Assembly: GCA_902810695.1 (NCBI GenBank)
Contig: CADDYV010000006.1
Coordinates: forward strand, 1 to 64,000
Direction of reading: 5' to 3'
Source: Actinomycetota bacterium
Lineage (GTDB): Bacteria > Actinomycetota > Rubrobacteria > Rubrobacterales > Rubrobacteraceae
Length of the DNA: 64,000 nucleotides
The first letter of the stretch is position 1; each line of letters begins with the position of its first letter. A program made the translations under genes and the position numbers. Below the pieces are notes generated by a model. That model was given only the letters and a program-made list of their open reading frames with translations, ran no database searches and was not told the DNA's origin. Below are positions 8,945 through 14,601 of the stretch, piece by piece.

Positions 8945-8995
8945 CGATGCTTATTGCGCTTTGAGGCTTATGTAAGCCTTTTTGCAGATGCAAGC

Positions 8996-11532: not shown

Positions 11533-11912
11533 TGTGGATAGTGTGGATAACTCCGAAATTCCCCTTACCTAAGCCAAAAACATCCTCCCCCACCTGTGGA
11601 CAAAACTGTGGATAACTCGCAATGTCCTGTGGATAGATTGTGGATAACTCGTGAGTTATCCACAGCCAGAGCTTATCCACAAAATTATCCACAGAGTTAT
11701 CCACAGTTTTTACCCCTCTTATCCACAGAGTTATCCACAACCAAATTAGATTTGTATGCATAAATCTAATGTAAATACGCGCCGGGCGATGCTTTTATCC
11801 ACAAGATGAGCCACTTTATCCACAGATTCTGTGGATAACTCCGCGAGTCTGTGGATAACTTTTGCAGAGTTATCCACATTCAGAGCGCACCCTGTGGATA
11901 AAGTGTGGATAA
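11533..11912. other. oriC: Chromosomal replication origin oriC (DnaA-box array)
   Basis: The dnaA-dnaN intergenic region carries 16 exact copies of the strong DnaA box TTATCCACA or its complement. Starts: 11542, 11607, 11639, 11656, 11673, 11685, 11697, 11719, 11731, 11795, 11816, 11830, 11850, 11870, 11893 and 11904. One-mismatch copies occur at 11533 and 11595. Boxes 11656-11739 are mainly in one orientation and tightly phased (11-22 bp start-to-start), while outer boxes face the other way. A box-poor gap at 11740-11794 splits the array. Position, density and the adjoining AT-rich element make the origin call secure. Confidence 0.96.
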
Positions 11913-11989: not shown

Positions 11990-13333
11990 TCAACGTTTGG
12001 TTTTTATCTGTTGGGTGAGCTCGTGGATCTGGTTGAAAGCGTCGCGGTCGTTGTTGATGAGGTTAGATATTTTGGTTGTGGCGTGCATGACGGTGGAGTG
12101 GTCACGCCCGCCGAATGCTTTTCCTATTTTGGGGAGTGATTCGTCGGTGATCTCGCGGCACAGGTACATGGCTACCTGGCGAGGGTAGGCGAAGGCTTTG
12201 GAACGGCTGGAGCCTACGAGATCTGGCTGAGAGATACCGAAGTAGCGGCAGACTTCGTGCTGGATCAGTTCCACCGGGATCTCGCGATACGGCTGGTCCG
12301 GCAGGATGTCCTTCAGGACCTCTTCGGCGAGCGCAACGCTCACCTCGCGCCCGTACAGCGAAGAGTAGGCTAGTATGCGCACCAGTGCCCCTTCGAGTTC
12401 CCTGATGTTCGTCGAGACCTTCGAGGCTATAAAGGTGAGTACGTCGTCGTGCACTTCGAGTTTGTCCATCGTTGCTTTCTTGCGGAGAATGGCGATTCTC
12501 GTCTCCAGGTCCGGGGGTTGAATGTCGGTTACCAGCCCCCACTCGAAGCGGCTCACCAGCCGGGCTTCGAGAGTCTGGATATACCTCGGGTGCCGGTCGG
12601 AGGTTATGACGATCTGCTTGTTTTCCTCGTAGAGCGCGTTGAAGGTGTGGAAGAACGCCTCTTGGGTCTCTACCTTGTTCTCCAGAAACTGAATGTCGTC
12701 TATGAGCAGAACGTCGTTCTCCCGGTAACGCTTCTGGAAGCCCAGCGGGTCGTTTTCGCCTATTGAGTTTATGAAGTCGTTGGTGAACTGCTCGCAGGTG
12801 ACATAGCGGACCCTCATGCTGGGCTCCTGGTCCTCGACGTACTGCCCGACAGCGTGCAGAAGGTGCGTCTTCCCGAGCCCGACGCCTCCGTAGATGAACA
12901 GCGGGTTGTAGACCACTCCCGGCGTTTCCGCCACCGCCATCGCCGCAGCATGAGAGAACCTGTTGCCCGCCCCGATAACAAAGGTGTCGAAAGTATACTT
13001 GGACTTGAACGGACGCGGCGTCCTGACGTTCAGGACGTGCTCGACGCCGTTTCCCTGTCCCGACACACCACGCCCATTGCCGCCACCGATGCTGACGGCC
13101 ACGGTCGCCTTCTCCTGGCCTAGCGCCGAACCGAGCGCCTCTTCAAGAAGCGGACGAAACCGGCTCTCGATGTACTCTTTGGCGAAGGAGTTGGGAACGG
13201 ATATCTCCAGCCGGTCTCCATCAAGTTCTACGGGCACGATGCCTTCAAACCATACCTTGAGCGAGGAGTCGTCTACCTGCTCGGCGACGTGGTTCAAAAC
13301 CTCGGTCCATATCTCTTCGATCATGCGCGCCAC
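11990..13333 (-). CDS. dnaA: Chromosomal replication initiator DnaA
   Basis: A 447-residue AAA+ initiator. Domain I spans about residues 1-80; domain III has Walker [12 protein letters not shown], Walker [11 protein letters not shown] and the arginine-finger-containing [11 protein letters not shown] segment; domain IV carries the DNA-binding signature [10 protein letters not shown] near the C-terminus. Domain II is short (about residues 85-110, glycine-rich). The start lies 6 bp after the stop of the GHKL-wHTH gene, so the two genes are almost certainly cotranscribed. DnaA boxes near 14.21-14.24 kb at the head of that unit offer a route for autoregulation. Confidence 0.97.
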
Positions 13334-13339
13334 GACTTC

Positions 13340-14116
13340 CTACACCCAGGTGGAGATCAGAGCTTCCACGAGATCCCGCCCGAGCGGAGAGACGAGGCGC
13401 TTACCGCTCTCGTCGCTGCTGAGGAGCCCGTGCTCCTCCAGCACCGACAGATCCCGGTAGGCGGTGCTGACGCTGATCTCCAGTATCTCCGCCACCATCG
13501 AAGGTCCCACTTCCCCGCACTCCAGGACCGTCATGAGCACTTTCTGCTGCCGCTCGGAGATGCTCATCCTGGGCACGGCATCTGGATACCTGCGCTGCGA
13601 GGGTGCCTCCGGCACGGCGTTTTCCTCACCTTTGGTAGAAGTCTCCTTGCCGGGAACCGATATCGTGACCACGGTCCCACCCCCGATGTTGTCCTCGATC
13701 GTTACCGCCCCCCCCACCTTCTCCGCTGCGGCGCGCGCGATGCCGAGTCCGGCGCCAACGCCCCGAATCTCGCGTAACGCCTCCGTAGTCGCCCCGCTGA
13801 ACCCGAACTCCAGTGCCCTCTCCTTGTCTGCTATGCCCGGCCCTTTGTCCGAGACCCTTACGGTTCTTCCCCCGTCGAGAACCGAGATGACCACGCCCCT
13901 GTAGCCAGCGTGTATCAGATTCTCGATAATCTCCCTTAGCGCCTCTTCTGGAAAGCCAGCAGCAACTTTCTCCATCACGAGCTTCGAGAATTTTGCGGTC
14001 GCCGCCCGTGGATTCGCAGCCGCCGCCTCGGTTACCTCCGGACGACCATTCTCAGGGTACATAGCGACCCGGATACCAATATCTGCCCTCTCGGGCTCGC
14101 CTCTTGTCTGCTCCAT
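13340..14116 (-). CDS. GHKL-ATPase / winged-helix protein upstream of dnaA
   Basis: A protein of about 258 residues, not recognised as a named family. Residues 43-155 are a GHKL (histidine-kinase/SpoIIAB-type) ATP-binding domain: N-box REIIENLIHAGY (Asn66), G1 box SDKGPGIAD (Asp90) and G2 box GVGAGLGIARAAAEKVGG. There is no phospho-acceptor His domain, so it is not a standard sensor kinase. Residues 183-250 look like a winged helix (SISERQQKVLMTVLECG, then SVSTAYRDLSVLEEHGLL, as in DeoR-type HTHs). Its stop is 6 bp before dnaA. ATG 14116 follows GGGGAT; ATG 14125 and GTG 14179 are alternatives. Context suggests an ATP-responsive regulator in the dnaA unit, but this is inference. Confidence 0.75.
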   Translation of the reverse strand: MEQTRGEPERADIGIRVAMYPENGRPEVTEAAAANPRAATAKFSKLVMEKVAAGFPEEALREIIENLIHAGYRGVVISVLDGGRTVRVSDKGPGIADKERALEFGFSGATTEALREIRGVGAGLGIARAAAEKVGGAVTIEDNIGGGTVVTISVPGKETSTKGEENAVPEAPSQRRYPDAVPRMSISERQQKVLMTVLECGEVGPSMVAEILEISVSTAYRDLSVLEEHGLLSSDESGKRLVSPLGRDLVEALISTWV

Positions 14117-14209
14117 GTGGATCATCCCCAACGCGGAATTTAACGCACCCTGCGCCGCAACGCTATAGCCGGAGCGCACAAAATGCAGTTTTGCAGGGTA
14201 TTAAGGTAT

Positions 14210-14242
14210 TTATCCACAATTTTATCCACAGGCTGTGGATAA
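14210..14242. promoter_or_regulatory. Three DnaA boxes at the dnaA-unit / rpmH divergence
   Basis: Perfect DnaA boxes at 14210-14218, 14222-14230 and 14234-14242, the third inverted. They sit in the 350-bp gap between the GHKL-wHTH gene (minus) and rpmH (plus), where gene direction flips. They are well placed to repress or time transcription of the dnaA unit, and possibly of rpmH. Confidence 0.8.
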
Positions 14243-14466
14243 GTTCCCGTAATGGGTAACTTGAGAGGATCAAAGTGACCCCGAAAGAGCCTTTATGTGT
14301 AGCGTTGAGAAATAAGTTTTGCAGGTATTTTCCAAGATAAGGCAAGCTCTGGTATATACTCGTTACTCTGCGCGAGGCCGAGGAATTTGCTGGATGGCTG
14401 ATGGTGCTTCGGATATACTCTTTTAGACATCAGGATGTTCTTTGAGCTAGTCTGCGAAAGGGTTTT

Positions 14467-14601
14467 ATGAAGCGCACCTATCAACCAAATCGCCGCAAGC
14501 GGGCCAAGACGCACGGATTTCGCAAGCGCATGAGCACGGTTGGTGGACGCAGGGTGATATCCGCCCGCCGCCGCCGCGGACGCAAGCGTTTGGCTGTGTA
14601 G
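14467..14601 (+). CDS. rpmH: Ribosomal protein bL34
   Basis: A 44-residue, extremely basic large-subunit protein starting [18 protein letters not shown] and ending GRKRLAV, the full usual length. It begins the plus-strand arm rpmH-rnpA-yidC-khpB. The rnpA ATG lies 21 bp after its stop. Confidence 0.97.

Follow-up and report, generated by a model that had tools for sequence, protein, structure and literature searches.

A GHKL-ATPase/winged-helix gene directly upstream of dnaA in several bacterial phyla: a probable, as yet undescribed partner or controller of replication initiation

Most of what is understood about how replication initiation is controlled comes from E. coli and B. subtilis. Known regulators of DnaA or oriC include Hda, SeqA, DiaA, YabA, SirA and Soj, and in many bacteria no DnaA regulator has been recognised (PMC5720831). 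The window analyzed here, a 64-kb stretch of DNA (64,000 nt) from a member of the Rubrobacteraceae, carries immediately before dnaA a gene for a protein that joins a GHKL-type ATPase domain to a winged helix. Does such a protein take part in the start of chromosome copying? The earlier note on this DNA knew of no described role for a gene of this kind, and our searches agree. No description of a GHKL-wHTH (winged helix-turn-helix) gene beside dnaA was found in an open-access collection of 5.39 million papers, and no dedicated family model for the protein was found in Pfam, NCBIfam, PADLOC or PHROGs. The domains themselves are known; it is their fixed pairing with dnaA that is, as far as we have found, undescribed.

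Because the alignment with relatives carrying the protein begins at ATG 14125, and because stops or frame changes appear upstream of this codon in several of them (DNA alignment), the gene is best taken as 13340–14125 on the minus strand (261 aa; the coordinates take in the stop codon). The ATG is itself conserved; an alternative start, GTG at 14179, opens the longest ORF. The earlier note had marked out 13340–14242. The lower coordinate is indeed the end of the gene; the upper one closes the third DnaA box upstream and does not mark the gene start. Between the TAG stop and the GTG start of dnaA at 13333 lie six bases, GAAGTC, the same 6-bp spacing as noted before. The dnaA gene (11990–13333, minus strand) matches Pfam models Bac_DnaA, Bac_DnaA_C and DnaA_N, and rpmH (14467–14601, plus strand) is the divergent neighbour on the other side. 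In this operon-like position, the GHKL gene and dnaA are probably cotranscribed and possibly translationally coupled.

Two domains are evident in the protein. Residues 60–158 (13652–13948, minus strand) match Pfam HATPase_c (PF02518, E 4e-14) and contain the N-box REIIENLIHAG with E65-x3-N69, the G1 motif D93-x-G95-x-G97 and the G2 motif G122-x-G124-x-G126. These motifs lie on a Bergerat fold (Pfam, AF2/Foldseek), which places the protein in the GHKL superfamily. Residues 189–247 (13385–13561, minus strand) form a C-terminal wHTH matching HTH_IclR/TrmB/DeoR-like Pfam models, with a recognition helix at S220-T221-A-Y-R224 and a wing at G241-K-R243. In the AlphaFold2 model of the window protein (pLDDT 83.5), the GHKL alpha/beta domain is followed by a disordered linker and then by the winged helix, with helices at 191–203, 208–215 and 219–231 plus wing strands. 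The same GHKL–linker–wHTH layout is predicted for a Bacillota homologue (pLDDT 87.5). Pfam and the predicted topology agree on the winged-helix class, from which DNA binding is predicted. All of 42 homologues searched with Pfam matched HATPase_c, and most matched a wHTH model. No phospho-acceptor (HisKA-type) model was matched by the window protein or appeared among the families matched by the 42 homologues, and the AlphaFold2 model of the window protein has no DHp helical hairpin. We therefore rejected a two-component histidine kinase, and the earlier description of a GHKL fold plus winged helix without a phospho-acceptor domain holds in both Pfam and AlphaFold2.

Comparison with known proteins gave likenesses to parts of this arrangement. 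The best whole-length structural match was DIP2311 of Corynebacterium diphtheriae (PDB 3lmm), which spans both the GHKL and winged-helix parts over 263–280 aligned columns, ranking first for the Bacillota model (E 6e-7) and 13th for the window protein. The two differ widely, with 14–16% identity, TM ∼0.5 or less and a large rmsd, and the DIP2311 chain is much larger (up to 556 residues versus 261 aa). We found no described function for this structural-genomics protein. Larger GHKL-wHTH proteins like DIP2311 presumably carry an N-terminal AlbA_2-type domain before the GHKL and wHTH parts; at 261 aa, the protein studied here is too short for such a domain and has no such Pfam match, so it is not of this type. 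For the ATPase domain, the closest solved fold and Pfam family (PF02518) are those of the CA domains of sensor histidine kinases (HK853, CpxA). Unlike these kinases, the GHKL protein has no DHp, phospho-acceptor histidine, or sensor or membrane part, and it has a DNA-binding domain of its own. SpoIIAB and RsbW are likewise small stand-alone GHKL domains, yet the GHKL protein has an added wHTH, barely matches HATPase_c_2 (2 of 42 homologues) and has dnaA as its neighbour. We take its N-box, ENLIHAG, to resemble the ENSLDAG of MutL, and MutL chains match approximately residues 59–113 of the GHKL profile. In contrast to the MutL/GyrB GHL ATPases, however, the second half of the domain is histidine kinase-like, and a linker and wHTH follow in place of an S5 transducer domain; membership of that group was rejected. 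A defence or phage function was also rejected, since PADLOC and PHROGs matches were domain-level only. As a proposed controller of DnaA or oriC, the protein would stand with Hda, SeqA, DiaA, YabA, SirA and Soj. To our knowledge these have unrelated domains, none of them combines GHKL with wHTH, and none is encoded at a fixed place upstream of dnaA.

How constant is the position of the gene? A first search of relatives placed it directly before dnaA in the Rubrobacteraceae loci read and in seven genomes from other actinobacterial families. The domain pair is thus found next to dnaA in Rubrobacteria, one of the two groups in which the earlier note had proposed to look for it. Wider searches reached several phyla, and a gene restricted to Rubrobacteria was rejected. 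When one genome was scanned for each GTDB species, 415 stretches encoding a GHKL-wHTH homologue emerged, the best 80 of which include metagenome-assembled genomes (MAGs) with deposits under Actinomycetota, Coriobacteriia, Armatimonadetes, ANGP1, Bacillota and Clostridia. In profile searches at a strict threshold (E ≤ 1e-25), which give lower bounds and classes that rest on MAG deposit titles, homologues were found in 153 of 396 Actinomycetota genomes sampled, 29 of 299 genomes in the phylum to which a Bacillota MAG belongs, and 35 of 36 in that of genome G411 (MAGs, most of them deposited as Armatimonadetes, ANGP1 or Bacillota). Nearly always there was one match per genome. We then considered 163 distinct loci, picked by protein similarity and not by position. 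In all 156 assessable loci, dnaA follows next in the same orientation, after a median gap of 18.5 bp, and rpmH lies divergently upstream of the GHKL gene in 150 of 150. Seven of the 163 stop at contig or chromosome ends; three of these are complete chromosomes that close with the GHKL gene and open with dnaA. The earlier note had named absence from this site in relatives as the result that would count against it; the search for such cases instead found the gene there in every assessable locus, over several phyla.

Of the gene-less Rubrobacteraceae genomes examined, G009, G030, G014 and G034 are assemblies without dnaA as well, so true absence was rejected for them, and in G032 dnaA is cut by a contig end. 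Several other actinobacterial families have members without the gene, in which dnaA comes directly after the rpmH region. Genome L178 has no GHKL gene between rpmH and dnaA, though others of its family carry one, and is probably a natural loss. Since the homologue was not found in 243 of the 396 Actinomycetota genomes sampled (E ≤ 1e-25) and is absent from L178, the gene is not universally needed. Several carriers have a more diverged DnaA (L026, L185–L187, L191, L193). In L026 the frame runs to 454 aa, and a long G/P/Q-rich linker separates its GHKL part from its wHTH part.

We analyzed residue conservation in 115 homologues with a mean distance of 0.55 (55% average difference). E65, N69, H72, D93, G95, G97, G108, G122, G124 and G126 are 99–100% identical, with the catalytic glutamate of E-x3-N conserved at 99%, and R224 and L229 of the wHTH are 100% identical. 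Near-invariance at both the ATP site and the wHTH suggests that ATP binding and DNA binding are probably both used. Distance matrices of the GHKL protein and DnaA are correlated (Mantel rho 0.52, 0/999 permutations). Joint inheritance would give such a correlation, which by itself is no proof of interaction.

Three perfect DnaA boxes TTATCCACA, which the earlier note had also seen in this gap, lie between rpmH and the GHKL gene, at 14210–14218 (plus), 14222–14230 (plus) and 14234–14242 (minus). This cluster is ∼85 bp upstream of the gene and occupies the same place in 24 Rubrobacteraceae (gap alignment). In the 64-kb window, the pattern TTWTNCACA occurs at 21 sites versus 0.88 expected by chance, and the sign of the GC skew flips near 14 kb, which is what an origin should show. 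A larger cluster, 16 perfect boxes, lies in the dnaA–dnaN gap (11542–11912). Other Rubrobacteraceae have 14–18 boxes between these two genes, and in this family the cluster is probably the main oriC. Outside Rubrobacteraceae, by contrast, the dnaA–dnaN gap has mostly 0–1 boxes, so origin layout differs between Rubrobacteraceae and most other carriers. Boxes between rpmH and the GHKL gene are present in nearly all loci and lineages, numbering 3–4 per Rubrobacteraceae genome and up to 10 in Bacillota. Thus, in most carriers, the GHKL gene rather than dnaA is the first gene after the cluster, and in most lineages outside Rubrobacteraceae, oriC probably lies directly in front of it.

To look for other elements, we used a footprint alignment of 24 Rubrobacteraceae rpmH–GHKL gaps. 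Two conserved direct repeats of CTGCAAA on the minus strand flank the DnaA boxes, the proximal copy (14190–14196) ∼65 bp upstream of the start codon and the distal copy (14318–14324) on the rpmH side. On the gene's strand, ∼42 copies occur in 8.1 kb of Rubrobacteraceae gaps versus ∼0.5 expected, whereas the word is hardly present in the gaps of other groups. Across the whole window, its enrichment is not significant (9 versus 4.9 expected). Further copies lie in the recF–gyrB gap (8981–8987) and the dnaA–dnaN gap (11861–11867), neither conserved in six relatives. From these sequence comparisons, the repeats are a candidate operator in Rubrobacteraceae; as a universal operator they were rejected, being confined to that family, and no word other than the DnaA box was common to the gaps of all groups. 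A conserved GCTATAGC-like element (14162–14169, minus strand; TCTAGC, TCTGGC or similar in relatives) is possibly the –10 of a GHKL–dnaA promoter. A sigma-70 scan called no promoter in the rpmH–GHKL gap, this element included. On the rpmH side, GTATATCC (14411–14418) and TCCA (14391–14394) are conserved in Rubrobacteraceae and probably make up the rpmH promoter. A structured RNA leader ahead of the GHKL gene was rejected, there being no Rfam match.

Because the gene stands directly before dnaA in all 156 checkable relatives, over several phyla, it probably encodes a partner or controller of chromosome replication initiation that has not been described before. The earlier note's proposal, that such a protein could tie initiation to nucleotide state, is partly supported: the linkage to dnaA came strongly through the check in relatives, and the regulatory link itself is presumed. 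As to how, we lean toward an ATP-switched DNA-binding regulator of the oriC–dnaA region that sets dnaA expression or DnaA action. Binding of ATP to the GHKL domain, perhaps followed by hydrolysis, would change the dimer state or shape of the protein. This would bring its C-terminal winged helices onto an operator in the rpmH–GHKL gap, among the DnaA boxes. Once bound, the regulator could set transcription of its own operon, dnaA included, or how active DnaA is at the origin, or both, with an effect on initiation that might be of either sign, and DnaA might close a feedback loop by way of these boxes. Counted against this reading is that gene order alone is no proof of function. So are the restriction of CTGCAAA to Rubrobacteraceae, the many sampled Actinomycetota in which the gene was not found, its absence from L178, and the failure of the sigma-70 scan to call a promoter in the gap.

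The main rival is a purely post-translational role, in which the ATPase acts on DnaA protein or on origin unwinding, and not on transcription. It would bind oriC via the winged helix and promote or block DnaA assembly, in role (not fold) like SirA, YabA, DiaA and Soj. Such a role would suit lineages outside Rubrobacteraceae, where the box cluster that is probably oriC sits directly ahead of the gene and the dnaA–dnaN gap is nearly free of boxes. It also fits the conserved E-x3-N glutamate, which suggests hydrolysis rather than binding alone, and the many bacteria with no recognised DnaA regulator (PMC5720831). But the wHTH resembles those of IclR/TrmB-type transcription factors, and contact with DnaA is so far a proposal; we regard this rival as unlikely, yet worth serious thought. 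Could the protein instead be a SpoIIAB/RsbW-like protein kinase or anti-sigma factor with an added DNA-binding domain, its partner encoded elsewhere? The compact GHKL domain without DHp and a weak HATPase_c_2 match of the window protein would agree with this. That match, however, is seen in just 2 of 42 members, weak and below cut-off, versus 42 of 42 for HATPase_c, and the locus has no anti-anti-sigma, STAS or sigma gene; the constant partner is dnaA. With the wrong GHKL subfamily by Pfam and no partner at the locus, an anti-sigma kinase was rejected as improbable; a distant partner may still exist.

The rpmH–dnaA neighbourhood is conserved in bacteria generally, and a transcription factor unrelated to replication might hitch-hike there, held by the stability of the region. 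A passenger, though, should now and then have moved or been duplicated, whereas none of the homologues (E ≤ 1e-25) whose surroundings were read was placed away from dnaA, in several phyla, which makes hitch-hiking a shade more improbable still. The reading we find hardest to credit is a helicase-loading factor replacing DciA. DciA (PF05258) was found in none of 36 Rubrobacteraceae genomes searched, versus 21 of 24 other Actinomycetota sampled, which would fit such a replacement. The idea is largely refuted by five other actinobacterial genomes that carry the GHKL gene and DciA together (G037, G039, G040, G052, G053). Moreover, the GHKL protein is not AAA+ and has no PF05258 match, and Rubrobacteraceae have a DnaC/DnaI-like ORF of IstB fold. 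In several complete relatives this ORF (∼288–305 aa; G000:C14:21081-21509) lies at a distance of ∼45–55 kb from dnaA; it is a possible helicase loader.

With a gene always before dnaA, and ATP-site and DNA-binding residues intact over several phyla, the protein is a strong candidate regulator. More broadly, though here we are more doubtful than confident, it may represent an old, mostly single-copy and previously unrecognised family of DnaA/oriC regulators over several phyla, Coriobacteriia included, in which a GHKL ATPase always encoded before dnaA would read ATP state and bind origin DNA. The regulator reading can be tested in any cultured, manipulable carrier. If true, it would give a direct handle on the coupling of initiation to energy state in the lineages that carry the gene.
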